Below are positions 3,001-54,176 of a DNA stretch of 64,000 bases, one piece after another. Made by a program: the position numbers and the translations under genes. Position 1 is the stretch's first letter. Each line of letters starts with the position of its first letter. The notes under the pieces are model-generated. The model saw only the letters and a program-made list of their open reading frames with translations. It ran no database searches and was not told the origin of the DNA. Source of the stretch: Sipunculus nudus (lineage: Eukaryota; Annelida; Sipuncula; Golfingiida; Sipunculidae); the NCBI GenBank assembly GCA_026874595.1, contig CM049314.1, positions 30,453,729 to 30,517,728 of the forward strand. The letters are read 5' to 3'.

Positions 3001-4200
3001 TGTTGAAATAAAATGGTTTATATTAAAGCCTAAGAAGAATTCATTATCATAAAAGATTGTTTTCCAGGATTCTGGAAATAGTTTACCCCCAGGCCATTTT
3101 GGTTTGTAAATTGGCAATCTCTGCAAATTCTTCATACTCTATAAACCTGCATTGATATTTTCTGTAGGTAGCAGTACCTGAAACCTACTGTGAGCTGTAA
3201 ACAGGCTGGAATGTGACATTTGAAACTGCAGCTCTTTTTTCAGCCTGTGGCATTATCAGATAAAGGCTTCCACAAGCTGCCATGTTTCAGCTTGACTGTG
3301 ACTGTCAGATATTATTTAATTGTTTAATCTGTATGTGAACAGGTGTTTGCTTTGTGTTGAACAGTTTACAGGTGGCATCCTTGCTGGTGTCTTTTATGAT
3401 TATTTTGATCAGTTTTAGACACAGGTGTGCTGGCTGTGTTATTATCTCTCTGTGCAGTGTGTATATTTATTCATAATTATAATAATGAATACTTTTCTTG
3501 TCAAATGGACACACTCTCTGGACTGAATTGAATAACAAAGCTGGCTAAAAGTTAAAGTAGAGTTCAGAATATTTAACTTTGCACAGGATACATTAGCATG
3601 AGATACTGTACAGCCTTAGAATCTGCACATGCAGTCTTCATAGTAAGATGGCATGTCCCAAAGCCATCAACAGTTTTCAAGAAACAAAGCCAATTTCACT
3701 GCTAACTAGAAATATGCATTCTCAGAAACGCAGGCCTCCATCATATTGGGGGGGGGGGGGGGGTGTACTTAATGGGCAGTTCTCTGCAACCCTACAATAT
3801 TTACTTATTGGTTCATATTACCAGGTTCATGGGTGTATATGTGTTCCCCTAACAAAGGTTTACATTCACTTATTTGGTCCATATTCCCCATGTTCACTAA
3901 GGCATATGTGCACATTTGTTATTATTCCTTGATGGCATTTCTGAATCTGGATCATATTCTGGGGCCACACCAAAATGTAATGCATATTCACACGAGAACA
4001 GGGATAAATGTATTGCCTCTTAGGGGAGTCAATTTCATATCTATAACTAATCAAAGCAGCTTCTGATAATTCAAACAACATGGCAGAAAATGGCAGCCCA
4101 GATATTTCTGATTATTGTTTTGTCCATTAGTGTGTCAGTAACTTTGTCCTGCATTTGCCACAGTATTCCTTTCACATAAAGTTTGGTCATTGTTTGCTAG
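1..4200. other. Upstream intron sequence of the Sbno/FGT1-like gene
   Basis: No helicase-like coding exon was found here on the plus strand, although the missing N-terminal two thirds of the protein must lie upstream of 4201. The stretch is AT-rich and holds a degenerate SINE (about 1535-1716), poly-T, a poly-G run near 3750 and no other recognisable element. It is probably intronic, because exon 4201 begins in mid-codon. Confidence 0.6.
1535..1716 (-). mobile_element. Degenerate tRNA-derived SINE, minus strand
   Basis: Read on the minus strand this segment aligns by eye with the SINE at 19366-19578. It has GGCTTCTGTGG near its start, then an eroded A box, an eroded B box (GTTTAAATC), GTGAGG, CAGTCGGCCC, GTGCCCAACAG and GTGTTTCACTCAC at the tail. 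The many substitutions in both Pol III boxes suggest an older insertion. Confidence 0.8.
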
Positions 4201-4330
4201 GTATTTCACTCCATGCTGATCAGAGGGCGGCCAACCAGCGACGTCGTATACATCTGACTGTTGAGTTACCCTGGAGTGCAGATAAGGCAGTTCAGCAGTT
4301 AGGAAGATCTCACCGGTCCAATCAGTCCAG
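4201..4330 (+). CDS. Exon with helicase motif VI of the Sbno/FGT1-like gene
   Basis: The exon starts after TTGCTAG with two bases completing a Gly codon and ends AG before GTTGGT. It encodes the second RecA-like lobe segment around [15 protein letters not shown] and [21 protein letters not shown]. The arginines of QLGRSHR correspond to the ATP-contacting arginine fingers of SF2 motif VI, so the helicase core appears intact where it can be seen. An open frame continues into the intron for about 45 codons, but the next exon (8843) restores the family sequence only if the donor at 4331 is used. Confidence 0.93.
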
Positions 4331-7400: not shown

Positions 7401-10400
7401 TCTGTAAATTTTCATATGCATCACAGTATCTCAAAACTTTTACTGTTTTTCTTCATGACAGTCTTGTCAGAGTATTAGTTTGCAATCATATATTTAGAAC
7501 TTTACTATAACCAATTAAGAGGGCCCCTTTCCTCTTAGCTTTTCATATTCTCATATAAATGAAAAACATTACAATAGAATATTTCTACATCCACCTTCAT
7601 GCTGCCCTCACTTTTCCCTTCTCCGAACCCCATCCCAAAGTCAGCCTCAGTAAGCAAGAACAAGATGAATCAGATATATTCATACTGTAATATTTTGTAT
7701 AACTATTCGTCCGAAGGTACCTATGTACATGCCAGAAATCTGTCAAATTGAAAGCTTGCAGACTACCATACACTTTAGATCCTTCAACAAATAGCCTAAT
7801 CATCATTCTACTACTGCTTATTACTGCTGTCATTGCATTCATATTTGCTCAAATATATCACAATTTTCAACCCCTCCTAAATAAATAAAAAATAAACCAC
7901 TATATTTGACTCTATTAATCCATCAGTCAGGTAATTTCATTCATCATTTACTCACATATTACATTACATTCCTTTATAATAGCCCAACATGTCCATGATA
8001 TTCATAAGCTTTATCGACTCGATATAGTGTCACAGTGGAGAAACATTTATAGTCCAATCATGATCAGCTTAGCGCCGTGACCCATGGGTCCCTTGTTTTG
8101 CCAAGTCAGACCGGGCATCTCCTGATTGACACTTGTTTTGGCTCAGCCATGCATATGGCCCAATGCACTCTGTTTATGTTGACACCTTTGATTGCGCCCG
8201 GTCCACTGTTTTTATCATTTGTTTACGGGGGAAAGCAAATGGTTTCAGGGCAATATTTTGGCAGGTACAGATTTATTTTAAAGGGAAGAAGCTATTTTTC
8301 ATGTTAACTCAACATGCTTTATAGTTGATTGGGTACCTTTAATGTTTGTCTCTTCATTCTCAACAAGCATTCCGGCCAGTCTGTGGCCAGTAGAACTTAA
8401 GATGAGATGTGTCACTCTCATGCTGGACTACAATTATACATGTATACATATTAAGCAGGACAACTTAACAAGCATTCCAGCCTGTCTGTGGCCAGTAGAA
8501 CTTAAGATGAGATGTGTCACTCTCATGCTGGACTACAATTATACATGTATACATATTAAGCAGGACAACCTAACAAGCATTCCAGCCTGTCTGTGGCCAG
8601 TAGAACTTAAGATGAGATGTGTCACTCTCATGCTGGACTACAATTATACATGTATACATATTAAGCAGGACAACTCAACAAGCATTCCGGCCTGACGTGG
8701 CCAGTAGAACTTAAGATGAGATGTGTCACTCTCATGCTGGACTACAATTATACATGTACTTCAGATAAAATTTGTGTTGTGTACTGAAAGCCTATACATT
8801 TTGCCTATAGTCCCACGATCTCATATTGTTATTGGGTTTTAGTGGACCTATATATAAATTACTGACAACAAATCTTGGTGGAGAGAGGAGATTTGCAGCA
8901 GCTGTAGCTCGGCGTTTACAGTCATTAGGTAAGTACATGTTTTTATCAAATTTCCTTACCTTGTCACTTTTTCTGTGCTGAGCACATGCCAGCAATAACA
9001 AAATTCTAAAGTTCAGACAGCTGATTCCCAGGTATTGGCTCTTTGATGAAATTTTGTAAATATTTGTAAGTGGTTCTCAGTTAGCCCATTTTTCTTCTAA
9101 TTTCAGTTATATCCTAAAGTTTCAGTAATAATATTATGGTTGTTAACTTGTGCCGCATATGTAAAACATCATGGTCTCACCAGTAAAATGGTATGGGCAC
9201 TAATACAATTCATTTTAATATGTTAAAGTATATAACATTTTAATAGATTTTTACAGAGACTGATGTTGTGACTGATGACAGGTAATCATGTATATAGAGA
9301 TATTAGTTGTCAAATGTGATAAAATTTATTATTAGGATGAAAATTACACCCTTACCACCAACAGAGAGATGTGAAGCCCTGGGGTGATAATGTAGAAATT
9401 ATGGCTATTTACTTTATATATTATGTTGATGGGTTCTACATATAGGATCTAATCTTTATTAACCACAGGTGCCTTGACCAAAGGGGATCGTAGAGCAGCC
9501 ACCGGTGCTGACCTGACAGAGTTCAACTTTGACACACCCTACGGGAGGTCAGCACTCAGGACCATGTACAACGCAGTCTGTCAGGTAAGTATGGAGAAAA
9601 ATATTTTATTTAATGATTTTGCATCTGCAGTTTATGATATACAGGTATCTTCCATGAGAGTGGTGTCTGTTCTACAGTTGTACAAAACAGGACATTTTAT
9701 CAGTGTTTTTGTATTGGCAACAGACTATAAAGTATACATTTCATGAGATTTTAGCTCAGTCCGTGGTATGTGATAATATTTAGTTCTGCACTTCAAACAG
9801 TATGTGTCTGCACTGTGGTCATATGGATCTGCTCATACCTGTGCAGTGGGTGTGGAAACAGCCATGAAGAATGAATATAAAATGGCTAAGTCTTGCACAT
9901 GGCTAGAGTTCCAAGTTGAATTCTCTGCCCACAGAATTGTTAGAGATTTTAGATCACTCCTTAATATCTAATGTATTAAGTTCCGCACTTCAAACAGTCA
10001 TGACAACGTTTATGGAACAGCCATGGGTAATTCAGTATTACTGATTAAAGAATTTAATTAGACAGCTGCTCATTGTGAGAATATAAGCGTAAGCCTAGTG
10101 TTCAGTTTTATTTCATTGGTACATATTTATTCATCTCCATTTATACAACATGTGTTTATCAACTAAATTAGTTATTATTAAAAGGTCATTTGATTCCATC
10201 CTTTTCTGGTTAAGATCAGATCCAGAGTAACTTCCTGTTTCCATTAACAATTTATATGTTGAAGATTATATTGCAAATATTGTATTATATACAAATGCGT
10301 ATACCCTGTAATGTTGTTAGTTATATTCCAACAGTAAATGTCCATATGAAAAAACTGAGATCCATAAACATGTATAGTTCCAAGCTGTAGGAAATGAGAT

Positions 10401-13400
10401 GTTCTGTTTATTTGTTACAGGGAACCATTGTGGCTGGCGTTGAATTCTCAAGCATCAACATGGGCAAGTACCAGCTGGAGCAACTGAATACAGACTTAGC
10501 AGTAAGTCTGACAGGGAGGCTATAAACCACAGAACCAGGGAGGGGTTGACTGTCTCACATGTTACTCAGGGGAGAATTTATATGGGGCACATAGGGTGTG
10601 AGCCCCTTCTTTTCAGAGACAGAAATCTGGGAAATAGAATAAAACATGCTCACTAACAAAAAGCAGTGATGTGGATAAAGAGTTATGGATAAAGTTCCCA
10701 ATAGTATTCCAGCCTCACTTGTTGATCTTGGCTAGGGTGTGTGTGTTTGTACTATTTTCTAAAATCCTCTCCTGTTCTTGTTGTTTGTCCTAATTTGCTT
10801 TGCTTATGATGATCTCATGATAATTATGCAGAGGATATCACAGTCAAATTATTTTAACAGAACTAGACTTAGCTCACTCACATATTAACCAGTCCAGGAG
10901 AATTGATGATTAGGTTGAAAATATTGTGAAGGTAGTGACAGTTCAGGTTGTATCATTAGTACATGCAGGTTTGAGTCATCGTGGAAATCAATTAAAACCA
11001 TTTATTCTAGTTCGGGAAAAGTAAGGGAATTAGAGAAAAATATGTATAATCAGAACAAATTTAAGTCATGATATTGACCAAGAGAAAATGGTCAGTCTGT
11101 TATTATTTCTTCTCCTGTCCATACATTCTGTCCTGTGTCTAGTTTTTTTCTCTATTGGCTGATTACACTATTTGTTGCAACACATACTGGTGTACTGGCA
11201 TTTGATACGGGCTGGTGTCTTTGTTACCCTTGTTCCCTACAATAACTTTTCACTGCAACAATATTGAAGATGTGTCAGATTAGAAAAAGGTTTGAATAAT
11301 TCTCCTTTAATTGTCCCTTGCTTCCTTGGAAGGAACAGGGGACATTGATTAATGGTGGGAGTCGGTTCCTTTTTCATAATCGATCATCGGTTTAGGCAAA
11401 CCGATCGATGATCAATTATTAATCAGTTCAGACAAATATAAAGAAATGTGCAATTATCTGTGAAAAACTGTACTCTCTTAACCCAGCCCACGTCTTAGTA
11501 ATTCTACCTCACAAAAAGAAGTTTTTGCCTTTTTTATATTTTCCTTTTTTCACTATAAGATATGCTATTCAAAGTTTCATTTTAATTAATTAAAGTAATC
11601 AATTAAACCACAGTCCAGGACATCTACTTGCTGTCCCTCATGAATACTCCCGCGTATCGTTTTAACTTCACTATCAGGACTTTCATTTTATAGCAATTAT
11701 GATGACTGCCGACATGTATACTGGTTTCACAGGCCTCCCAGCAAAATTACAGGCCCATTTAAGTTTTGGTAAAAATTAAAAAATAAGTAATTGAAAGCTA
11801 AAAATATAATTACTCATGCAGCAGCGGCACCTGACATCAGTTGAGGAGATTATTTCTAAGAGAATCTTGCAAAATTGGCATAGACCTGGAGCATTATGGA
11901 GCATTGTAACTCCATACCGCCCTATTTTGCAATGAACATCTCGTTAGGAAAGTCTCCGCTAATTCTGCAGCTCCCTGCCAGTTCACATAGGTTTAATAAT
12001 TCCCCCAGTTCTCTCATCTACCGTGTCATACTTAGTTATATACGGAGGTTATTTGGGAACACAAACTCATTATATGAAGCGTGGAATGTTGTAAAAAATG
12101 GAAGAGTAATTTTCCCCTATAACTTAAAGACATTCTGGTAAAAATAATCATGAGTATGATGTAATCGATAGTTGCCTTTCGTAATCGAGCGCTTGGAAGT
12201 TGCAGAAAACCGACTGACTTTCGATAAAACTCGATGATCGGCACAACCCTAACATTGATTTGGGTTTGTCTGTCTGGCTAGCTGTCTAGCTGTCTGTCCA
12301 TCTGTAAGGTATTCATTTCCATGCAATAACTTTCCTAAATTTCAACTGATTTCATTCAAATTTGGGTCTGTGATTGCTCCCATGCCTGCCTTGGTTGGGA
12401 TTCGTTTTGGAGTGTCTGTCTCAAAAGAAAATAATATGATTTTTCATTTTTTTATATGATGAATCAGCACATTTAGTTTCACTAATCACCAACAGGTGTC
12501 ACTAGCATTGGACATAAAAAACCTGAATTTTTTGCTGTAACTGCCAAATACTGCCATCTGTTGAGTGTGGTTAAAACTATTTGTACTTAGTCACCACACA
12601 CTTCCAATCATCCTGGACTTGAGGGCAGAAGCAGGGGACAAATTCCTTGAATTTGCATGTGTTAAGCATTGCTCAGATGAAGAAAAAATCCGTGAATTTT
12701 GCTTTCACCAAATTCTAGGATTACTCCAGCAAGTTTCCAAATATATATGTGTTTTCCATTCATTTCTCTTTCATATAGGAATGTCTCCTGCTTATGGGTG
12801 TCCTGGACCAAGATGTCCTTCGATCGTCTGTCAAGGTCAAGGATGCAGATTGTCGGGATGTTGGTAAATTCCTCAACAGAATCCTGGGATTGAGTGTCAA
12901 AAGACAGAATCTGGTAAACATTTTTTTTTTGCATTGTTATAAAAACTGTAAGGTTTAGGTATCAGTAAAGAGAGAGGACTTGTATTCTGTTGTGCTTCAT
13001 ATAATGCCAGTCATATCTGACCATTAGTGTTATATTAGCTTATTTATTAAGTAAATCTGTAGTATAATATTTTGTTTTGACCTGTTACCTGCTGGCTCGC
13101 TGTTAAAGCTTGTTTTTTTCTATCCATGGACAAATGAATTTGAAATATACTTCCTACCACTACTTCCTGTATATAATACTTAAACAATATAATTATTGAA
13201 ATGTATAACAGGAATACATCATAATACAAAACTAGTTATACCCAGCTTGATAGAGACAAAAATACCTCATATGGGAAGTTCTAACTACTATCCTTCTTCT
13301 TTTCGAATCAATTGATGTACAAGTCTTAAAATATTACAAGTATTTTTTGTGGCATTTCATTCATTATTACTGGCTGTGACATTTCCTTTACTAATCTCAT

Positions 13401-16400
13401 TTATTTTTTTTTTCAGATCTTTAACTACTTTTGTCAGTCTTTGAAAGCCCATGTATCTAGAGCCAAGAAGGAGGGCAGGTGAGGATTACTTTGACCTCCT
13501 GACCTTTTGAAGTAACTATGCCTTTAAAAGGAAATTTATACAGTTCAGCAGTTTAGCAAAGCCTCAGTTTTGTGTAAAGGTGGAAATAGGTGCATGTAAA
13601 GAGGGATACAGTAGTATGGTATTTTTCCTAATGCAGTGTTTCTGAAAAAAAATTTTTTCCAGAATTTAAATTGGGGAACAGTTTTGTTTTTATGTCAGGC
13701 CTGTATGTCAACCAAATAACTCAGCAGTTAACTAACATGAGCTTCAGTGAGGTATTCTTACATGGCTTACATTCAAGAAAGTTTAGGTACACAGCTATCA
13801 CATGCAATCCTGGCCATGCCAGTGAAGAGTTCACTCCTAAGAGCAGTTGGACCATTCATCCCCAATGCCTCAGGTGAATTTGTTGAAAAAAGGGCACGCA
13901 CATATCCTGAAAACAGTTTAGATGGATTTTTATCAAACAGGCTCTGCAATGAATCTAATATTTTTATATGTCCTGGTCATCCATTATGCAAGTCAAAAAG
14001 AAACAAGAGGTTCCAAGGTAGCATGGCATTAGTTGTTATACAAACTTGCCACCAGATATCCTTTTATCTGAAATTTGTTTTTCCAAACAAAAACCTTGTC
14101 CCTCTACACTTTTAGAAAAATAGATTCTACTATAATATGTATTATGAAATATAAAAAAATTGTTTTCCAGATATTCATTTACAAAAAATAAGTCAATTGA
14201 GCTGCTTGGTATATATTTGGTTGTTTCCAGTTAAATTTCACATTGTTTTAATGTTCATAAGCCATTGTCCCTGGATGTAAAAAAAAATATGTTTATTGTG
14301 TAACCTCCCCATTAAGTATGTTGGAAGTAACTGGGTCATGACACATTGTAGATAGCTAATTGTTTACATAGTCTTTGGACCCTAATGGAAAATTACCTAT
14401 AAAAGTGATTCCCCAAGTTCCTGTAAACAGAAAAACTTGAGCTATGCTGCATTAATAACTATGAGTGTTCCCAGGCTTATGTAGACCAGTCTCAGAATAA
14501 ATGACTGGGAAGAGGTAAATGCCTTACCTTGTATATTTTACTCTTTTATGCAAATTCTCAAAGTGAATTTGATCTTTTTTTCAGTTACAATGAAGGTTTG
14601 GTTGACATCATGGCAACTAAGGTTGAAATGGTCAGAGAACCTCGAGAAGTGTTCAAGGAAGCAGCCACACACAATAATACTACAAAGTAAGGAAGCCACA
14701 CACAATATTACTACACAATAAGGCAGCCACACATAACAATACTAAAAAGTAAGGCAGCCACACACAATAATACTATAAAATAAGGCAGCCACACACAATA
14801 ATACTACAAAATAAGGCAGCCACACACAATAATACTACAAAGTAAGAAAGCCACACACAATAATACTACAAAGTAAGAAAGCCACACACAATCATACAAC
14901 AAAGTAAGGCAGCCACTACACAGTAACACTACAAAGTAAGGCAACCACATGCAATAATACTATACAGTAAGGCTACCACATACAATAATAGTATACAGTA
15001 AGGCAACCACATTCAGTTGTACTATACAGTAAGGCAGGAAGGCAGCCAAACTCAGTTAAATTACACAGTAAGACAATCTTACATTTTGTGATGTACTGCT
15101 GTTTTGATTATTCAGTACAGTTAATATTGTTTATTTCAGTATGTTGAAATTTCCCGTAGAGCAGCTATTAAATATAAATATGGACAGTTATAAGTAAAAA
15201 TTAATGTTGAGCTTCCATTAGCTTTATCTACTAGCATGTAGTGTTTAAAAAATATTGACATATTTAAGTGGTTATTTTCAGCCACCTTGTACTCAGCATT
15301 GATAGAGGTATGCCGTGGGACATGGCAGTGACAAGAAGTGAAAACTACTCTGGTCCAGAAGATGGCTTCTATTGTTCCAGACGAGATGTCCGAGGAAAGA
15401 AGCTCTACATCCTGGCAACTCAGAAAGAAGGCTCCTCTCATCAGTTCCGCATTGCAAGGTAATCTCTCAGTAACTGAAAAAAACGCAAATAGCAAATACC
15501 TGTAATTACCGAAAAGGCTTTATCAACCTGCACATAGCAAAGGTTATTGTTTTCACTTTATTCTCTGTGTGTGTGTGTAAGTCTGCAAGATATGTGAAGA
15601 AAGGTATCATGGATGTTATTGAAATTTATCATATAGGTTGTTTTTTTGAAAATGTCCTAGAAGTTCAATTTTGGTGTAAATCCATGCTAAATAACCCTGG
15701 AATGAGTGTTTTATAGGTTTTTGTTTACACTATGACATGCATGTGATTGTATCACAATCTTTGGAGTGTGAGTCATGATGTCACGGAGGACAGTGATGTC
15801 ACTCCATGTGCCATTTCTCTGAAAGGTGTCAGTAAGCTGACGTAATACAAGGTTGGGGGGGGGGGGGCATGGTTGTTGTTTGTTGTGTTTAAAGTCAAGG
15901 ACAGTAAAACCACAATGTCCAGGTTTTTTTTTTTCAAAATATTTTCAATTAAAAAGTTCATAGGACCTTCACAGGTTTAATTTACACTCCAATGCACCAA
16001 CTTTGAACACTATCTTCCATGCAGGGTTTGTGCCACCATATTGGATTTTTATTTTATTTTGAAATGTAATGAAACTGTCTCTTGATACTTCTATTGAAAC
16101 AGTTCCATGTTTTTCCTGAAGTTGTAAGCATCACTGGCTTTCCTTCAAACCTTGATCTGAATCCACTTCAGACTCGTAGATGAAACTTTTTTTCTCATGG
16201 CCAGTCTCTCCACAAAACAATCTTTGAAAAAAATCTTTTTTTTTTATGATCCTTTGTTAACCTTTACACAGCCTAAAGAATATGCATTAAAACTTGTGTG
16301 CAAAGATGTTATCAGATCATTTTATATATTGAGATGTGATATTAATTTGTATCTGACTGTTTTAACAATGCTTGGTTCCATGTGCATAAGTGAATTGTTT

Positions 16401-19400
16401 AAAATCATTGTATGTGTTAAATATTTCAGATGGCCCAGTTTGTATCTCAAATCTTATATATATTTTATGCACCATACATCTCTTCATTTCATTAAAAGTA
16501 AATAAGTCTTGTCGCTCAGTCTGTAGTCACAATTACAGGCCTGCCAAATCACTCTTTAAAAAAAAAAGTCACTGCTTTTTTAAGGATTTAATAAAAATGA
16601 TGCTTATTACTCTTTTTACACTCTTTTTATTTAGCAGCAATCTTTTTGTTTTTACTATTTTTTCAGTGAAAAAATGTTGATATATACTGTCTCTCCTGCT
16701 CTAACAGTCCAGTTAGAACAAGAACGCAACATTTCACAATTTTTGTGTGTGCAAATGTCCAGCATGTTTTACAACTTGTGATAAATTCCCTTATCTTCAT
16801 GCAGGGGGATGTGCAATGTATGTTTCTAACTTTTGGAGCGATTCATATACACATACTAAGTATGAGAGGAACATTTTTATTCAGTTTGTGATAAAAAAAA
16901 TGGGGAATCGATTCTAATTTTACTCTTTTTTCTCTCTTTATTTCAAAGAAGGCTTCTCTTTTTTACCAGAGCATTCACTCTTATTTCCGGTCATTTACTT
17001 TTGGGAGGCATGAATTAGTTATCATGCTTCAAGGCAGAACCTGTCAGGTAGACTTCAGAATATTGTAATAATTGGTATTGCAAAGTGTCAGGTTCATGTA
17101 ATTTCATACTGATTAATATAAATAGTAGATTTAAAGAAACAACAAAGTTATTCTGGCTGATTGAATATATAAGTAGCACAGAAGTGTTCATTTGTGCTTT
17201 ACAGGCCAAATACAGGGGTATCCATGTTTGAAGAGGAGAGGAGTGACCTTATGCAGAAGTATATCAAGGTCAATGCGGAAAAAGCAGGTTTGTGCACAGT
17301 TGTTGTTTATAAGGTCTACCAGGTTTGGTCAGTTGGTTACACAGCGACTATATTAAAAAGAAAGTGTGTATTCTCTGAAAAAGTGCTAACATTGACATAC
17401 TTTACATTTGTGCATGACTGGACACAAAATTTTATGACCTTTATATCTCTACACAGACTTGGAATTTTTCATATCTCCTGCAGTCTAATTTACACAGAGA
17501 AAGAACTCCATAAAAGCTATAGAGATTATTCATGACTGGCACCTTGATGATCAAGCAAATGTATTCCAAATCTTATTATATTATAATATAACATAATTCC
17601 CCCCCCCCCCCCAAAAAAAAATATTAATATAGAATTTACATAAAAAATGTACCCAATTCCTGGAGGAAAAACATTATTTCTGTCTATTTTTCCACAAAAA
17701 AACATGAGGTTGTGTGATTTAAAAAAAAAAACTATTGGCACATTTATGAGCACTGTCAACTTGGCAGTGACGTCACACACAGGGAAATCCCCAGTGACAA
17801 AAAATTCTAGGTCTCAACAAAGCTAAGTATTTCTGACACTGTCAGCCCAAAATTTTCAGGAAGGAAATAAAACTACATGTATTGCTAGATTCAAGTCATT
17901 TCTAAATCTTGCCTGTGACGTCACACTTTGCACCAGCCAATCCCATCAGGGCCAAGTTTCTGTTCTGGATGAAATCTACCCTGCACATAACAAGCCTATG
18001 TGCTATTACGTTAACCAAGCCTGATCCAGACCAGACGCATTCACTTAGATTATCATCAGACTCTTTTTCTTCAACTTTTCCTAAAATAGAAAAATACTGG
18101 ATACAGAACTCTTTTTCTCTATTTGATCTCTTTTAACATTGGTGAAGGACTGGGTGATAGAGACCATTTGGACCTCCATTTCCTTACTGATTGTAACATA
18201 TGCTGTCTTGTTAAAAACAAGTGAAGTCACTTTTTAAAATGTGCACATTTTTTTTTTAATTTTACTTCAGTAAGACATCAGTAGAAAAAAGTAATTTCAA
18301 GCTTTTTCCTTATCACTTTCCCAATTACACAGATTCAACAGGACATCATAAAATTATGGAGTTTATAGGTCATTCAATATTTTTGACATGTTTAGTTTTG
18401 GTATTTGGACCTTCATGAACTTTTATGAGGTTTCCAACTTATATTTCATATTTTAAAATTTACTCTGATACAGAGGCGGGTTGGAAGGACCAGTATGAAA
18501 CCTCCAAGAATTTGTGTATGCATGGACCACATTGTAAGAATGGGCCATCATGCAAAGGTGAGCAAAACGTTACAATTAATCATAAATAAGACTTAACATC
18601 CAGAATAAAATTGTATTTAACTTGTGTTTTGGATATCCCTTTGTTTAACTCTTATTTGCAGTTTTGAAATAACTTTTAATATTTTTTATTATCAAATAAC
18701 TGACTTTATTTTTGTTTTGTATTATTATCCAGGAAGTCCAAAATTACTAGTTTTGCCTGGAAATTATGAGTATTATTACGATTAAGGAAGATCTTAATGT
18801 AATCAGTGATTCTTTAATTATTCTGTAAATTTAGTCGTCACATATTCTGTTAAAAATGTAGTATTTTGTTCAAATCATACAACATTCCAGAGATTTTATA
18901 AAGTATGTGATGCAGAGCATATTAGGTTCACTTCATGCTGTATAGGGAAACTAATCAACTGTACCCCAACAACATGAGTTGTATTTCAGGGGGAATTTTT
19001 ACAGATGGTGCAAATTTGATTACATCAAATGTTGAATATTGTAGACCTATAGTTGTTAATGCTGTGTGTATTTAGCTTGAACACAGAGTCCCATCTTTGT
19101 CATATATGGATTGGGAGAAAAAATTAATGGCTAACCACACTGCTTTGATTATACCAAAATAATGATTTTTATGTTTATAGTTGGAACACGCTGCTATGAA
19201 ATGCATCTGTTATGTGGTGGTATCGTCACCCTCATGTCTTTGTTGGATACGACAATTGCCAAATACGCTGCTGGACTTCAGCTCAGGTCAGTACCAACTT
19301 TCACTTTTATTTATTGTAACAATGGAGGGCTTCTTTGTTGCAAGATTAAATAAACCTTTGTAAATACCAGCTTCTGTGGCTCAGGGGTAGAGCATAGGAC

Positions 19401-22400
19401 TAAAAGCCGGGAGATCGTGAGTTCGAATCTCAGCAGAGGTGGTGAGATTTTGCACGGTCGGCCCCTACCCTGGGGTGAGCGCTCTGCAGGCTTAATGGGA
19501 AGGCTGTGCCCAACGGCTGTGTTTCACTCACAAACAGCATTAAAATATGGAGGCGGTTACCTCAACCAAAAAAAAAAACCTATGTAAATAGGCAGTATAT
19601 TAAACAAATAATAAGCCCAAGCCTTTGTCCTTAACCTTTCATGAGAGGAAAGGGCACTTGTCATTAGCATCAGTAATTTAATTAAATTATGTGGGAACTA
19701 TCGAGTCAGTCTTTATTAATTAAGTTTAAAAATATATATGATATGGTGATTTTTTGTCATTCAAATGAAAGAAGATAAAAAGATTTACAACTGAATCAAC
19801 ATTTAAGCTATAAAAGATTGGAATAGGCTGAGACAAAGCCTAATTACAGTTTACTACCTTTAGTTCATCCTGCTGATCAGTTAACAGAAGCTGCTTAAAA
19901 AGTATAAATATTTGTAGGTAAAATATCTGACAGTGACCTTCTAAGACATGGTTTACTTTGAACCCTCAGAAACTTAATACCTACCCTAACCTCAGCTGGA
20001 TCCATGTTAAAACCAAAGGTTTGTCTTGACAAGGAGGCAAAGGGGGTGTTTCTGATATTACTGGTTGCTGAGTCCCAGTCAGCTTGCATATCCTGCATTT
20101 AGGAACTTTCTTTAATGGAAAAAGGCTGGAACCTTGGGCCTGACAACAGTTGATTCATTATTGTGTGAAGAGTTATCTTATTGATATTAATTCCTGGGGC
20201 ATTACATATCAACTAGTTGGACACAAATTGAAATCCAGTTTTGTGTTTATTTATTTTCACAGTAAAGCAGATTGCACTCTGCGTGTGGTTCGTGTTCAGC
20301 TGACAAATGGAGAGCGAGTGGTTGGCATCAGATACCCAGAACTCCTAATTCCTCAGGTGGAGAAGGATCTCAAGGAACAAAAGACAATCGAGTTCTTTAT
20401 GCAGAAACAGAAGGTATATCACTTTACCTTATGTCCATACACACTTAGACTGGCCCAGTCCATGAAATAGTTATGACTTAATTGTTGCTTCTGACAGAAA
20501 AATCAAACGTTCCCTGCGTTGTCACATTTAGTATCTTGCGGCAACTCATATAACTAATTTGCCACAATCTGACCCTCTGATTGCAAGGACTGGTAATTTT
20601 TGCCGGTTCCTGGACAGTCAGCACCACACATCATCGCCTCGCTGAACTAAGGTCTTCTCCAGTGATGTCAGCAGTGGTCATTCCCAGAATCTTTTTCAAA
20701 ACTAGCATGATTCATTCAGTCATCACCTATTCCGGGCTTCCAATTGGCTACTAATATTCCCACTTAATTTGTCTTAATAGTTTTAGGCCATCGCTTAAGT
20801 TGAGTTCGGCAAGACTTTATAAAACACTATAACCCTCAGCCAGAGTGTTAACATTTATCATTTAAGATGGCCTGTTTAAAACATAATGTAGGCCAAACTC
20901 TGACTCAGCCAAATCAGCGCGAGATATTCAGGTGCACCACGCAACAAGTGCAGTCAAAATGTACAGGCTGCCTGAAACCATCACGATTCGCGAGTCGCAG
21001 TTTGACAGTTAATACACAGGTGCAGACAAATGCTGCCAGCTGCTCTTGTCATCTCGGCAGAAGGAATTTTACTGGACCTGTCGGTACAAAATTGTTGTGA
21101 TAGTGTCTTAAATATGCATTAAACATTTGGCCCATAATATTTGTTCAGCAGACATATATCATAGGACATGAGGTCCATGTGTGGACTACATGAATACATG
21201 ATTTCAATGCGAATGTTACCAAGCAGGTCGAGCTGTGGGACCGCTGTTGGTGTTCTCATAGCAACGATGCCACACACATAAGGCGTGAAGGCCTGATATG
21301 CAAATACGGGGGAATCGTCGGGTCCTTAAAGAGCCTTGTGACGCCTTAATATGCAAATATCAGGGATTCACCATAGAGACTTTACAGGGCTTTTCTGATA
21401 TGAGCTGGCACCGAGTTAATTCTATCGGTACCTGGAATCCCGTTTTATTTTAAGCATTTTATTAGTAAACGCAAATATTAAAGCCCAGGCAGGGCTAATA
21501 CACACTTTGTAAAGCTGAGATGTACATTTCTTTATTGATGAGGTCAACATATATTTTGTTCCCAACTCATTCATTGATACTATTGTAACATTTTAAGGAA
21601 AAGAATTGACCTTTTGGAGATGCAAATAGTAAATTAATCCAAATCAAAATTTTGTTATGGCATACACGTGTTCAAGCATATTCATATTTACCCTGCTCTT
21701 AAGCATTACTAACAAAATCTTTACTTCTTCATAACTCTGAATTTTGTATACATGTGCCCATGTAACCAAACAAAAATCACCAAAATTTTATAAAGCATAC
21801 AAATTTTTTACCATCAAGTGATGAACTGAAAATGTGTACAAACAAGAAAAATCGTTCATTGTTTAAGCACTGGTACTTCTCAGTATTTTATTTGTTTGCT
21901 CTGAAATTTTTCAGATAAACAGCTTACAAAATCACATTAATTTGCATACAGGTTGAGCAGCTGATTAAGTTTGGGCACAAACATGGTAGTTTTGTATCAC
22001 ATCCATGATCCTGTGTTATTTACCATATCATGGGCATGTCATCACTGAATATTAATTAGTCTTGTCCTAATAATTGTTCAGCAGTCGAAAATTAGAGGAT
22101 ATTTGTATATAATTGTCTATGTAAGTTTTTGGTGGTCAAATTATTACAGGGATCAAATCATTAGAATAGATACAATATTTAATGCACTTGTAATAATATA
22201 ATTTTATGCTAATACTAAGAGGGATTTTCCCATCAGGTGTACACAAATATTTCTTTTATTTCCAGAATCAAGCCACCACTGGTGGTGATGCTCCAGCCAC
22301 CAGCATGAGCCCTCAGGATCCTGTCATACACAGCCTGAAATATAAAACAGAGGACTGCACGCCCGTCAATCCTAGGTGTAGGAATAAGGCTCTCACCCCT

Positions 22401-22985
22401 CCAGTCACGATGAAAAACTTCTTCAAACCCATAGTGAAAAAGAACACTGCTGCTCAGAATCAGAGTGATAAAAAGAAAACCCAGGACAAAAATGGAATCC
22501 TGGAGAAGAATGTTGATTCAAAATCTAATGAAAATTTAGGTGCAGCAGTTAAGAGGTCACTAAGTACATCATCAGCTGATTCAAATGGCAGAACCGATTC
22601 TCCTGAATCAAACGCCAATAAAACAGATGTGGACAAATTTAAAGCAGAAACGTTAGCTGTTCATAAGCAAGATGATAGTGGTGATTTTGTGACATTTTCA
22701 TCTCAAAGAAACCAGTCAAAATCTCAGGGAAGCATACATTTTGGAAATAGTCTGGCATCTGCCTCAAAAAGTGGACAGAAAAGGCCACCACCAAAATCAA
22801 AGGATATGCCCAGGACAAAAAAACCAAAGCAAACCAGTATTCTAGCATCACTTGGTAGGAAAAAGAGTGTGAAAGAAGAAACGGAGGTAACTGAGAGGAA
22901 ATGTCCGGTGTGCCAGACAGTATTCCCTAGAGGTCTATTTAATGACGACATTAACAAACATATAGATAATTGTCTCATTGAATGA
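4201..22985 (+). CDS. Strawberry notch / FORGETTER 1-like helicase, 3' part (13 exons, 5' end outside window)
   Basis: Thirteen exons join in one frame with GT-AG borders: 4201-4330, 8843-8928, 9469-9584, 10421-10501, 12779-12913, 13417-13478, 14585-14686, 15282-15458, 17205-17287, 18474-18557, 19181-19286, 20263-20413, 22266-22985. They encode about 677 residues and end in TGA. The protein enters at [16 protein letters not shown], continues through [11 protein letters not shown] (helicase motif VI, QxxGRxxR) and then [27 protein letters not shown], which are hallmarks of the Sbno/FGT1 family of SF2 helicase-like chromatin and transcription coregulators. The Sbno C-terminal domain follows ([29 protein letters not shown], a Cys-rich segment, [13 protein letters not shown]). 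The last exon adds a basic disordered tail, a PIP-box-like motif and a UBZ4-like finger, which I do not recall in vertebrate SBNO1/2. Upstream helicase motifs are not visible in 1-4200, so the preceding intron extends beyond the window. The wording resembles plant FGT1 more than vertebrate SBNO in places, but this is from memory. Confidence 0.93.
4402..4475. repeat. (CT)n microsatellite
   Basis: An interrupted CT dinucleotide run lies about 70 bases into the intron after exon 4201-4330. Confidence 0.95.
4917..5035. mobile_element. Left end of a TTAA-flanked MITE
   Basis: This segment starts TTAA + AGGGACATAATCAGGAG and runs through CAGTTTTGC, CCAGCACACGGTCTCATTTCCT. It is homologous to 48795-48905, the left part of a complete copy. 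The matching right end lies at about 8080-8342, so the two ends are some 3.4 kb apart. Confidence 0.75.
5040..6360. repeat. Two tandem copies (~680 bp) of a dispersed repeat
   Basis: GTCCGTCCGTCC-type sequence is followed by AGATGTCCCCAAAATCTCC at 5158 and again at 5838, and by CATAAGGATTTAATCT at about 5650 and about 6325. The spacing is close to 680 bp. A related copy is at about 30350-30700 (CCATTGTCCGTCGTCCG, ACCATACCGAAAATTGGGTC). It has no coding capacity that I can see. Confidence 0.8.
7110..7230. repeat. Short direct duplication (~70 bp x 2)
   Basis: The string ATGATTGCAACTTTTGCAA followed by ATTCTAATATTTTAACTTAT occurs twice in succession within the first large intron. Confidence 0.8.
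8080..8342. mobile_element. Right end of the TTAA-flanked MITE
   Basis: The sequence from CCAAGTCAGAC through GGCAGGTACAGATTT, AAAGGGAAGAAGCTATTTTT to GATTGGGTACCTTTAA is homologous to 49035-49290 in the complete copy. It ends in TTAA. Confidence 0.75.
8361..8760. repeat. 105-bp minisatellite, about 3.8 copies
   Basis: The anchor ACAAGCATTCC recurs at 8363, 8468, 8573 and 8678, an exact 105-bp period. The units are nearly identical and the last is truncated before ACTTCAG. Because 105 is divisible by 3, one frame stays open across the array (8342-8695), but there is no sign of coding. It lies in the intron just upstream of exon 8843-8928 and immediately after the MITE right end. Confidence 0.97.
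11340..12255. mobile_element. Possible non-autonomous element with ATCGAT-rich ends
   Basis: The left side contains CATAATCGATCATCGG and CGATCGATGATC; the right side contains GTAATCGATAG and CTCGATGATCGGCAC. A similar architecture is seen at 35475-35870. It may be a DNA-transposon derivative, but clean terminal repeats and target duplications were not found. Confidence 0.35.
14585..14686 (+). CDS. Sbno/FGT1-like exon whose 3' end seeds a 31-bp minisatellite
   Basis: The exon encodes [23 protein letters not shown] and then [10 protein letters not shown]. The donor must be AAA|GTAAGG, because the next exon (15282) continues the frame as [13 protein letters not shown]. The last 26 coding bases plus the donor are the first unit of a tandem repeat running to about 15070. 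Reading past the donor gives AAG TAA, so any later donor would place an in-frame stop immediately after the normal exon end. Confidence 0.9.
14661..15075. repeat. 31-bp minisatellite derived from an exon end plus its splice donor
   Basis: The anchor GCCACAC recurs at 14664, 14695, 14726, 14757, 14788, 14819, 14850 and 14881, an exact 31-bp spacing. About five more diverged units follow to about 15070. Unit 1 straddles the coding exon and its donor at 14687. Further units keep GTAAG, for example at 14749, 14842, 14873, 14904, 14936, 14967, 14998, 15029 and 15068. Confidence 0.97.
15855..15868. repeat. Poly-G run
   Basis: A poly-G tract in an intron. Similar G or C homopolymers occur at about 3750, 6537, 17599, 32317, 32707, 33607, 37427 and 48489, and are likely sites of sequencing or assembly length error. 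Confidence 0.85.
19366..19578 (+). mobile_element. tRNA-derived SINE with intact Pol III boxes
   Basis: The A box TGGCTCAGGGG at 19377-19387 and the B box GTTCGAATC at 19421-19429 match tRNA internal promoter consensus sequences. They are followed by a family tail (CACGGTCGGCCCCTACC, GCTGTGCCCAACGGCTGTG, TTTCACTCAC) and an A-rich 3' end. It lies in the intron after exon 19181-19286, in the same orientation as the gene. Near-consensus boxes suggest a younger copy than the one at 1535-1716. Confidence 0.9.
22266..22985 (+). CDS. Terminal exon: disordered tail, PIP-box-like motif and UBZ4-like zinc finger
   Basis: The acceptor is TTTATTTCCAG. The exon encodes 239 residues rich in Ser, Lys and Asn. 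At 22401-22433 the sequence [11 protein letters not shown] has the PIP-box pattern of an aliphatic residue three places before FF. It is close to the C-terminal PCNA-binding motif of DNA polymerase eta (TLESFFKPL), although Gln at position 1 is Pro. A basic stretch ([18 protein letters not shown]) could be a nuclear localisation signal. At 22902-22973 the pattern C-x2-C-x15-H-x3-C, with CPVC, INKHID and NCL, matches the RAD18/SPRTN UBZ4 ubiquitin-binding finger, with about four extra residues in the loop. The exon is contiguous in frame with exon 20263-20413 (KQK-NQATTGG). Confidence 0.88.
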   Translation, partial: NQATTGGDAPATSMSPQDPVIHSLKYKTEDCTPVNPRCRNKALTPPVTMKNFFKPIVKKNTAAQNQSDKKKTQDKNGILEKNVDSKSNENLGAAVKRSLSTSSADSNGRTDSPESNANKTDVDKFKAETLAVHKQDDSGDFVTFSSQRNQSKSQGSIHFGNSLASASKSGQKRPPPKSKDMPRTKKPKQTSILASLGRKKSVKEETEVTERKCPVCQTVFPRGLFNDDINKHIDNCLIE

Positions 22986-36150: not shown

Positions 36151-36289
36151 ACAAAGAAAAATTGTCCAAAACACATATTTTATTATCTAGGGCTGGTAAA
36201 CGTTCACTTATATATGATTTTTAAAAAATCAATTTAAATAATCCTTTATTGATTTTATCCAACTTTATTTATATCAACTCCGCTTGCAT

Positions 36290-37240
36290 GCAGTGATAAA
36301 CACTCCAAGGACCCTTGTGTCTGCTCCTGTTTAGCCCATTGGTAGCAATTCTTGGGCCCCATATACAGACCCCGCCTGTTACCCTCCATGGGCCCACATG
36401 TGTACACATGTTGGCCCAACGTCCTAGCCAACATTGGACCCGGGAGCAAAAAGTCACGGGTGCCCACGGGGTTAGCCCATATGGGGCCCATGGACATGTA
36501 CCACAAGGGTCCCTTGTTTGCATGTAGTGACAAACCCTCCAAGGACCCATGTGTTTTCCCCTGTTTAGCCCATTGGTAGCCATTCGTAGGCCCCATATAC
36601 AGACCCCGCCTGGTACCCTCCATGGGCCCACATGTGTACCCATGTTGGCCCCACGTCCTAGCCAACATTGGACCCGGGAGCAAAAAGTCACGGGTGCCCA
36701 CGGGGTTAGCCCATATGGGGCCCATTGACATGTACCACAAGGGTCCCTTGTTTGCATGTAGTGACAAACCCTCCAAGGACCCATGTGTCTGCCCCTGTTT
36801 AGCCCATTGGTAGCCATTCGTGGGCCCCATATACAGACCCCGTCTGATACCCTCCATGGGCCCACATGTGTACCCATGTTGGCCCCACGTCCTAGCCAAC
36901 ATTGGACCCGGGAGCAAAAAGTCACGGGTGCCCACGGGGTTAGCCCATATGGGGCCCATGGACATGTACCTCAAGGGTCCCTTGTTTGCATGTAGTGACA
37001 AACCCTCCAAGGACCCTTGTGTCTGCCCCTGTTTAGCCCATTGGTAGCCATTCGTGGGCCCCATATACAGGCCCCACCTGGTACCCTCCATGGGCCCACA
37101 TGTATACCCATGTTGGCCCCACGTCCTAGCCAACATTGGACCCGGGAGCAAAAAGTCACGGGTGCCCACTGGGTTAGCCCATATGGGACCCATGGGTTTG
37201 TACATATTGGTCCCACATGGGTCCCTTGTTTGCATGCTAT
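36290..37240. repeat. 234-bp GGGCCC-rich satellite, four units
   Basis: The anchor GTGACAAACCCTCC (GTGATAAACACTCC in the first unit) has its fifth base at 36297, 36531, 36765 and 36999, an exact 234-bp period. Units differ by only a few bases. Since 234 equals 3 x 78, the minus strand stays open for 326 codons, and other frames on both strands are also partly open. That points to sequence composition rather than to a protein. Inside each unit the words TGGGCCC, GGGCCCATG and CCCATGT recur, so the unit itself probably grew from shorter repeats. Confidence 0.95.
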
Positions 37241-52546: not shown

Positions 52547-52682
52547 CAGGTGTTGCAGTTAAGTAATCAGTATTTAATTACCAGCATATATTGTAACGCA
52601 GAATCACGGGAATACAATCAAAGCCTATGCCCTGATGATGCATGTACTGTAACCAATGTTCCAGTGCATATTGTGATAGACA

Positions 52683-54176
52683 ATGCTCGTTTTAAGTTTG
52701 CTCTACCTTACCCTGGCTTTATTTCATGGAGTTATCTGTCAAAACATACTGCTGGTGGCACTTGCATACCCTGGTGATGTTCGTACGTTCTTAAGTGTTG
52801 GGGCGATACTCAGTCAGAAAGGGTATAATGTAACATTAGTGGCACCCGAATATGTAATACATGATGGAATGAATTATTCAATGTTCTCAGTTGTGACCAT
52901 TCAATCTTGCGCCTTACAGGGCCAGTTAAAACCAGGATGGAATGAAGGGTTAATACAATCAATTTTAGAGGGATCGTGGATTAGACGAATCGCATACTTG
53001 TATGAAGATCACGTGGCCTTAGAAGATACATGCACTCATATGCTCCAAGACAGAGGATTAATTAAGGAATTAGAGACAAGGCAATTTGATTTTTCTTTGG
53101 TTGGTTTTCCTATCTGTTCCGCCTACCTACCACATTTATTGTCTGTACCATTCGCGCAGATACACGCTAATCATGATTTTTCTAAATGGCCAGCCAGACC
53201 TTGTGAGTCAATAATACCCAGGAAGGTATCTACATTAGAGACAATTTTAAATGTATTTCTTATGATAACCTTGGAACTAATATCAGCTGTTAAGGAGAAA
53301 GAACGAACTTATTTACTCAAGGAAAAAGACCTCGTGAGTACTCAAAGTTTGGTTCTTCATTCTCGGGCATCATTTATTCTACGTAGCCCATTGATGGATT
53401 TTCCTTATTCGAGGAATCCAGGTGTTATCTACACTGGGCATCTGGCAGTGCCACAGCCATTAGAATTACCCCGTTATTTAAGAGATTATGTCGAAGATTC
53501 TCCAGAAGGGTTGGTTATAGTGTCCTTCGGTAGTTGGGTTGTTATTCCCGAGTACCTAACACGAATATTTCTGGAAGCATTCGCTGGGCTCCCATATCGT
53601 TTCATTATGAAGTCAGATAAGGAAAACCTCGAGCCTTTACCAAACAATGTTTTACTTTACCCGTGGATACCCGTAAATGAACTTTTGTCACACAGGAAAA
53701 CGAAACTAATTATTTCTCACGGCGGCATTAACACACTTCAGGAGGCTACGTACCATGGTGTACCCTCAGTTGTTATTCCGTTTGTGTATGACCAGCAATA
53801 CAATGGATTCGCTGCCGAATTCAGAGGCTATGGCAAGGTGTTAAGTCTTCATAATTTGAATGTTGCGACGTTACGGCAAACATTATATAATGCAATATCC
53901 AATAAAACATTATCGAGGACGGCAAAGGAATTGTCACTAATTATGAAAGACCAACCGTCAAGTGCGGACAGTTTAGACCAATGGTTGAGGGTTTTAATGA
54001 AATATGATAAAAGCCCGTTTGATACAGAAGAACCTGATTATATGATATGTATTGATCTCTACATGATTTACATTTATTCTGTTATTGTTATTGCTGTTAT
54101 CACTATATGTGCATTTATCATTCTTATATTTGTATATGTTTTTCGAATAATACTTCCTAAAGTTAAAAATGACTAA
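52683..54176 (+). CDS. UDP-glycosyltransferase (UGT family), single exon, catalytic pair apparently replaced
   Basis: The 497-residue open frame has the usual length and layout of animal microsomal UGTs, which transfer sugar from UDP-sugars to small lipophilic acceptors in the ER lumen. Residues 1-19 form a signal peptide. Residues about 328-371 carry the UGT donor-binding signature (WIPVNELLSH, ISHGGINTLQEA, GVPSVVIPFVYDQQ), with Asp370-Gln371 contacting the sugar. A membrane segment spans about 459-490 and is followed by a short tail ending KVKND, a KxKxx-type ER retrieval signal. In my manual alignment the catalytic His of the N-terminal lobe (GH or SHW in relatives) is Asp32 in YPGDVRTF. 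Its partner Asp (LTDPFLPC in relatives) is Gly141 in LVGFPIC. AATAAA lies near 54369. The absence of introns could mean a single-exon UGT or an old retrocopy. Confidence 0.92.
   Translation: MLVLSLLYLTLALFHGVICQNILLVALAYPGDVRTFLSVGAILSQKGYNVTLVAPEYVIHDGMNYSMFSVVTIQSCALQGQLKPGWNEGLIQSILEGSWIRRIAYLYEDHVALEDTCTHMLQDRGLIKELETRQFDFSLVGFPICSAYLPHLLSVPFAQIHANHDFSKWPARPCESIIPRKVSTLETILNVFLMITLELISAVKEKERTYLLKEKDLVSTQSLVLHSRASFILRSPLMDFPYSRNPGVIYTGHLAVPQPLELPRYLRDYVEDSPEGLVIVSFGSWVVIPEYLTRIFLEAFAGLPYRFIMKSDKENLEPLPNNVLLYPWIPVNELLSHRKTKLIISHGGINTLQEATYHGVPSVVIPFVYDQQYNGFAAEFRGYGKVLSLHNLNVATLRQTLYNAISNKTLSRTAKELSLIMKDQPSSADSLDQWLRVLMKYDKSPFDTEEPDYMICIDLYMIYIYSVIVIAVITICAFIILIFVYVFRIILPKVKND

Follow-up and report, generated by a model that had tools for sequence, protein, structure and literature searches.

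We report that a 64,000-nucleotide stretch of the Sipunculus nudus genome (hereafter the window; C9:30453729-30517728, in a genome of 1.43 Gb and 153 contigs) holds the 3' part of a gene for a divergent helicase of the SBNO (strawberry notch) family, whose last exon encodes a very probable ubiquitin-binding zinc finger (UBZ) and a motif resembling the PCNA-interacting peptide (PIP) box. The gene is intact, its tail exon is in frame, and the finger resembles known UBZs in sequence, contact residues and predicted fold. We propose, with a probability of roughly 0.4, that the helicase is recruited by this tail to ubiquitinated PCNA at stalled forks.

Structure of the gene and of its terminal exon

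Exons were located by tblastn, guided by a provisional SBNO1 core, and were checked by splice phase. The start of the helicase core lies some 51 kb ahead of the window (model start at -51301), and the core is complete from ALLPPPPTYPLS on, the motifs GDGAGVGKGR and DECHKAK and a further 11-residue motif being intact, as in SBNO1 and SBNO2; the donor of one short exon (-44539..-44487, NKEQASTKVALAVTSIQ) is weaker. Thirteen exons lie within the window, with consistent phases and AG/GT borders throughout, the 20413|22266 junction included. The terminal exon (22266..22985, plus strand, assigned on translation and phase) is the 3' end of the gene and encodes a lysine/serine-rich tail of 239 residues followed by a stop, starting at residue 955 of a 1,193-residue model. 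The first-pass annotation had placed a PCNA-binding-like motif at 22401-22433 and a UBZ4-like finger at 22902-22973 on this exon, in frame with the helicase; both were found there (plus strand), and the phase-consistent exon chain bears out the frame. A basic stretch was labelled by eye, unscored, at 22779..22829 (plus strand). KQTSILASL (22827-22853), considered as a second PIP, was rejected by eye for its lack of aromatics.

The C-terminal finger

The finger, identified by profile, sequence and fold comparisons, reads C-P-V-C-x15-H-x3-C and stops three residues short of the C-terminus (CLIE). The general pattern C-x2-C-x8-18-H-x3-C occurred in 19 of 100,000 shuffled tails and a stricter UBZ4-like form in none of the 100,000. 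When the finger was searched against PDB sequences, the top six matches were TAX1BP1, RAD18 and FAAP20 fingers. UBZs also led the matches to the predicted finger fold (VIA-align); RAD18 and WRNIP1 were not among the 11 matches listed, which excludes nothing. With the FAAP20 UBZ profile (PF15750) the scores remained below the cut-off of 25 bits, at 18.2 for the tail, 22.1 in the genome search and 23.0 for the finger alone, and the finger was among the best UBZ matches of the genome.

In UBZs of the RAD18/WRNIP1 type, the Pro-Val of the beta-loop and an Asp of the helix touch ubiquitin (excerpted text of PMC4370504). These contact residues are kept in the window finger (CPVC, HID) and all four zinc ligands are intact, in agreement with the UBZ4-like label first given to it. 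The CCHC ligands and CPVC are common to RAD18, WRNIP1 and the window finger, and the RAD18 alignment also brings out the wording INKHxDxCL. The loop between the second Cys and the His counts 15 residues, versus 11 in RAD18 and WRNIP1, so that the RAD18 alignment needs a 4-residue gap; the C-x2-C-x15-H-x3-C spacing is that of FAAP20. A spacing of 11 forms no part of the contact-based UBZ grouping in the same excerpts (PMC4370504). FAAP20 itself needs D-A-L helix contacts and a terminal Trp for ubiquitin binding, according to excerpts of PMC4267625, whereas the window finger has N-D-L and ends CLIE. The UBZ identity is well supported at the level of sequence, contact residues and predicted fold, and binding of ubiquitin by the finger is very probable.

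The PIP-like motif

The canonical PIP box is Q/N-x-x-psi-x-x-theta-theta (excerpts of PMC3973308). The motif at 22401..22433, assigned on translation and a pattern test, has Pro at position 1, the aliphatic M at position 4 and FF at positions 7-8. It is followed by Lys-Pro, the FFKP wording being like that of the polymerase eta PIP. Only 3 of 100,000 shuffled tails contained [VILM]xxFFKP[IL]. No canonical Q-form PIP was found in the tail; the strict Q-form expression does match QNLIFNYF in the helicase part (exons 12779..12913 and 13417..13478 jointly), so a match to it is by itself no proof of a PIP. A phmmer search of the 26-residue PIP stretch against PDB gave no match. The Y-family polymerases too have non-canonical PIP boxes, and polymerase eta also needs its ubiquitin-binding motif, as stated in the excerpts of PMC3973308. 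Of the PCNA-binding label, the FFKP, the aliphatic position 4 and the two aromatics stood; the canonical Gln/Asn at position 1 is missing, and the decayed intronless copies described below differ at FF. On its sequence, the PCNA-box reading is plausible and weaker than the UBZ reading.

A FAAP20-like gene in the same genome

A FAAP20-like gene at C15:26163310-26163897 (L047, L051) likewise has NFFKP upstream of a C-terminal UBZ. It reads SSSIALTNFFKPKV, the FFKP standing 66 residues ahead of the first Cys of the finger, and the finger, joined by hand across one intron, follows C-x2-C-x15-H-x3-C and ends DDVTW. The name rests on the finger, D-A-L and the terminal Trp, the comparison of the C-terminus with human FAAP20 being in part provisional; no other FAAP20 domain was found by Pfam in the open frame. 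The two fingers share CPxCQTVF, and a pairwise blastp-short comparison aligned them over 25 residues with 48% identity (E 8.5e-5); the NFFKP segments reached no better than E 0.11. In shuffles of the two NFFKP proteins, [VILM]xNFFKP occurred 2 and 0 times per 50,000, in a comparison made after the likeness had been noticed.

Placement in the SBNO family

Matches to PF13872 (AAA_34) and PF13871 (Helicase_C_4) were judged against the Pfam cut-offs of 27 and 30.5 bits, respectively. Five C9 exons exceeded the AAA_34 cut-off (46.4, 46.3, 34.1, 30.2 and 27.1 bits) and two more fell under it; Helicase_C_4 scored 79.1 bits at window 4200-4328 (C9:30457928-30458056). The assignment to the Sbno family is thereby upheld, for an intact helicase. 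Among the best candidates scored in the genome search, PF13872 gave 14 exon matches at two loci, on C7 and C9. Over aligned pieces, the C7 gene shows about 71% identity to the provisional SBNO1 core (571/809 positions, overlapping pieces counted twice), and it was taken as the ordinary SBNO of the genome. For the window protein, identity is 40.6% to the same core (382/940) and 49.4% to the C7 protein over matched pieces (236/478).

The further label 'FGT1-type' was not supported. FGT1, the Arabidopsis FORGETTER1, has the helicase core in common with the window protein and carries a PHD finger at aa 667-757 (excerpts of PMC5040591), whereas no PHD finger was found between the helicase lobes of the window protein, whose linker exons (-24853..-24734 and -23682..-23591) join the second lobe in phase and have no Cys-rich motif. 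In a tree of 12 rows, FGT1 and SBNO grouped together (89/86, unstarred branch), and the window protein fell outside them, among the eukaryotic rows; the FGT1 and SBNO1 fragments were provisional references, and the window protein has the longest branch and an odd composition, which is a caveat on its placement. Because of this position and because identities among the three eukaryotic lineages are about equal (39-42%, on the same provisional fragments), we read the gene as a divergent third lineage of the SBNO family, not an FGT1.

The exon at 18474..18557 (plus strand; borders, phase and alignment) holds a 14-residue Cys-rich insert within the family C-terminal domain, which is missing in 8 aligned bacterial and viral relatives. 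The insert, CMHGPxCKxG..C.VG, is presumably common to the window protein and FGT1.

The tail as an addition to the family domain

No close relatives of a 529-residue part were found in GTDB genomes or IMG/VR, and a two-sequence motif alignment search returned 8 bacterial and 7 viral loci, of use only as outgroup. Among these 15 loci, 14 had a frame (none in L066) and 12 matched the helicase; the frames of L062 (303 residues) and L069 (75 residues), which had no helicase match, are uninformative on the motifs. The tree above took 8 of the 12 matching relatives: L063 and L064 were left out, and the motif-anchored cut removed L065 and L067. Alignments to the 12 stop at residue 929-958, approximately where the last exon begins. 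The finger pattern C-x2-C-x8-18-H-x3-C was found in 0 of these 12, and L068 has one LFDFF within a frame of 3,587 residues. Within the genome, the 3' region of the C7 SBNO (9 kb, three forward frames) showed neither the finger pattern nor [VILM]xxFFK, unlike the window protein; it offers a candidate last exon ending LSLPL-stop after the core (splice phase unchecked), and the PF15750 genome search listed no match on C7. Vertebrate SBNO1/2 are likewise not known to carry the finger or the PIP-like motif. On these sequence comparisons, the tail is an add-on to the SBNO family domain.

Intronless copies of the gene

PF13871 also matched 17 near-identical, stop-bearing intronless copies (8 of one form and 9 of another), located about 235 kb or less from contig ends on C4, C8, C12, C13, C15 and C17 (L027-L034, L037-L045), some of them paired about 5.35 kb apart (C8, C15). 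In L027, the helicase piece corresponds to cDNA 134-592 with five exon junctions contiguous (89% identity), the middle piece to cDNA 712-912 with two junctions contiguous (81%) and the tail piece to cDNA 1632-1714 (76%). All 17 loci retrieved through their helicase piece also contained the tail piece, which a protein search detected at 17 places, with one further hit on C15 at 112 kb. The L027 tail piece has the same orientation as the helicase piece and follows it after 994 b, against an expected 1,039 b, which supports the presence of helicase and tail in one mRNA.

Compared with the living gene, Ka/Ks was 0.11 for the helicase piece (151 codons in L027, 129 in L042), 0.32 for the middle piece (62 codons) and 0.35-0.39 for the tail piece (27 codons), the C15 tail piece reaching 0.73 (58 codons). 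The low value of the helicase piece points to an intronless paralogue, functional at first and decayed later, as the ancestor of the copies.

Proposed role and competing explanations

Through its terminal exon the helicase would gain a lysine-rich, probably disordered extension that carries a peptide resembling a PCNA-docking motif and, at its C-terminus, the UBZ. This UBZ would bind the ubiquitin surface in the RAD18/WRNIP1 manner, and the UBZ and the weak PIP-like peptide would jointly target the helicase to ubiquitinated PCNA at stalled forks, for remodelling of DNA or protein-DNA complexes there. Binding of the tail to ubiquitin is likely, binding to PCNA possible, and action of the helicase at forks speculative. 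Such two-part recruitment would follow the logic shown for FAN1, which, as do Y-family polymerases and SNM1A according to the FAN1 paper, has a non-canonical PIP and a UBZ on one protein. These known proteins differ from the window protein in having a nuclease or polymerase as their enzyme unit, and the PIP adjoins the UBZ in FAN1, whereas about 160 residues separate them in the window protein.

Several observations weigh against this proposal. Pro instead of Gln/Asn at position 1 puts the motif in the non-canonical PIP class. The loose core [VILM]xx[FYW][FYW] occurred in 4,230 of 100,000 shuffled tails; the shuffle counts thus make FFKP unusual, not the bare PIP core. Decayed intronless copies have C-Y or C-S where FF stands, which is mildly against strong constraint on the motif, although decay may simply have removed FF. 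It is a real possibility, somewhat short of even odds, that a genuine UBZ reads another mark (ubiquitinated FANCD2/FANCI, ubiquitinated Rev1, K63 chains or ubiquitinated histones), NFFKP being no PCNA ligand and the protein a ubiquitin-directed repair or chromatin factor. The loop length shared with FAAP20 and the likeness to the FAAP20-like finger of the genome favour it, as does the role of the FAAP20 UBZ in recruiting the Fanconi core complex and promoting its interaction with the PCNA-Rev1 bypass complex (excerpts of PMC4267625); the fact that the window protein and the FAAP20-like protein both have NFFKP ahead of a UBZ, an occurrence infrequent in shuffles, speaks against it. The protein would less probably be an ordinary SBNO-type transcription or chromatin co-regulator with a fast-drifting tail, the finger being structural or otherwise binding: the SBNO/FGT1 biology found in the literature is transcriptional (excerpts of PMC5040591 and PMC12289961) and evolution is faster in the tail pieces than in the helicase, but the intact zinc ligands and contact residues and the rank of the finger among the UBZ matches of the genome make this unlikely.

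That exon 22266-22985 belongs to another transcript, the domain combination being an annotation artefact, is very improbable. The intron ahead of this exon is 1.85 kb long, none of the intronless copies spans the 20413|22266 junction, and the order of the L027 pieces, with 712-912 upstream of 134-592, indicates that the units are rearranged; the phase-consistent AG/GT borders and the joint occurrence of helicase and tail pieces in the copies, with the spacing and orientation seen in L027, stand against it.

A broader version of the proposed recruitment to ubiquitinated PCNA is that a third eukaryotic SBNO lineage, apart from the Notch-linked SBNO and the plant FGT1, is a damage-tolerance helicase recruited through its PIP-UBZ tail, and that it may share a code, NFFKP combined with a C-terminal UBZ, with this animal's FAAP20; we regard this as doubtful.

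Exon coordinates and other features of the window

All exons are on the plus strand and, except where another basis is given, rest on splice borders and phase. The Helicase_C_4 exon with the SF2 motif VI region (4201..4330), which gave the PF13871 match reported above, is followed by helicase exons at 8843..8928 (junctions also intronless in the subtelomeric copies), 9469..9584 (also intronless in copies; overlapping PF13871 match at C9:30463184-30463354), 10421..10501 (5' junction also intronless), 12779..12913 (3' junction also intronless), 13417..13478 and 14585..14686 (both also intronless in copies). The SBNO family C-terminal domain is encoded by exons 15282..15458, 17205..17287 and 19181..19286, besides the insert-bearing exon, and the family-wide domain ends with exon 20263..20413, assigned on phase and on the alignment ends of the 12 bacterial and viral relatives. 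A 31-bp tandem array of 12 copies (14661-15037) begins at the 3' end and donor of exon 14585-14686; the exon end and the donor-like AAGTAAG therefore recur along the intron as a series of sites resembling donors, some of them mutated.

Elsewhere in the window, a 498-residue open frame at 52680-54176 (plus strand), apparently a single exon, matches the UDP-glucuronosyl/glucosyl transferase family (PF00201, 130.5 bits). A 234-bp tandem array of 3.9 copies (95% match) lies at 36284-37195 and is open for 335 codons on the minus strand, a frame that matched no Pfam family at cut-off.

Significance for the family

In a literature search made largely without subscription papers, we found no publication describing an SBNO protein with a UBZ or a PIP and no paper linking strawberry notch with the replication fork. 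The term ubiquitin-binding zinc finger was absent from the strawberry notch/FORGETTER1 papers found; those found for SBNO1 and PCNA named SBNO1 once each, with neither term in title or abstract, and the FORGETTER 1 papers found were all on plants, judged by title. To our knowledge, the biochemical role of SBNO/FGT1 helicases is not settled. They are treated as transcription and chromatin regulators in the excerpts of PMC5040591 and PMC12289961, and the latter links Sbno1 to neuronal genome stability via Yeats4 transcription. If a member of the family is equipped with a ubiquitin reader, and perhaps with a PCNA ligand as well, this would offer a site of action that is concrete and testable. If the proposed role is true, the harm done to genome stability by SBNO1 loss would gain a reason that is not solely indirect, and a shared NFFKP plus UBZ code, if real, would connect the Fanconi/translesion pathway with an SBNO helicase.
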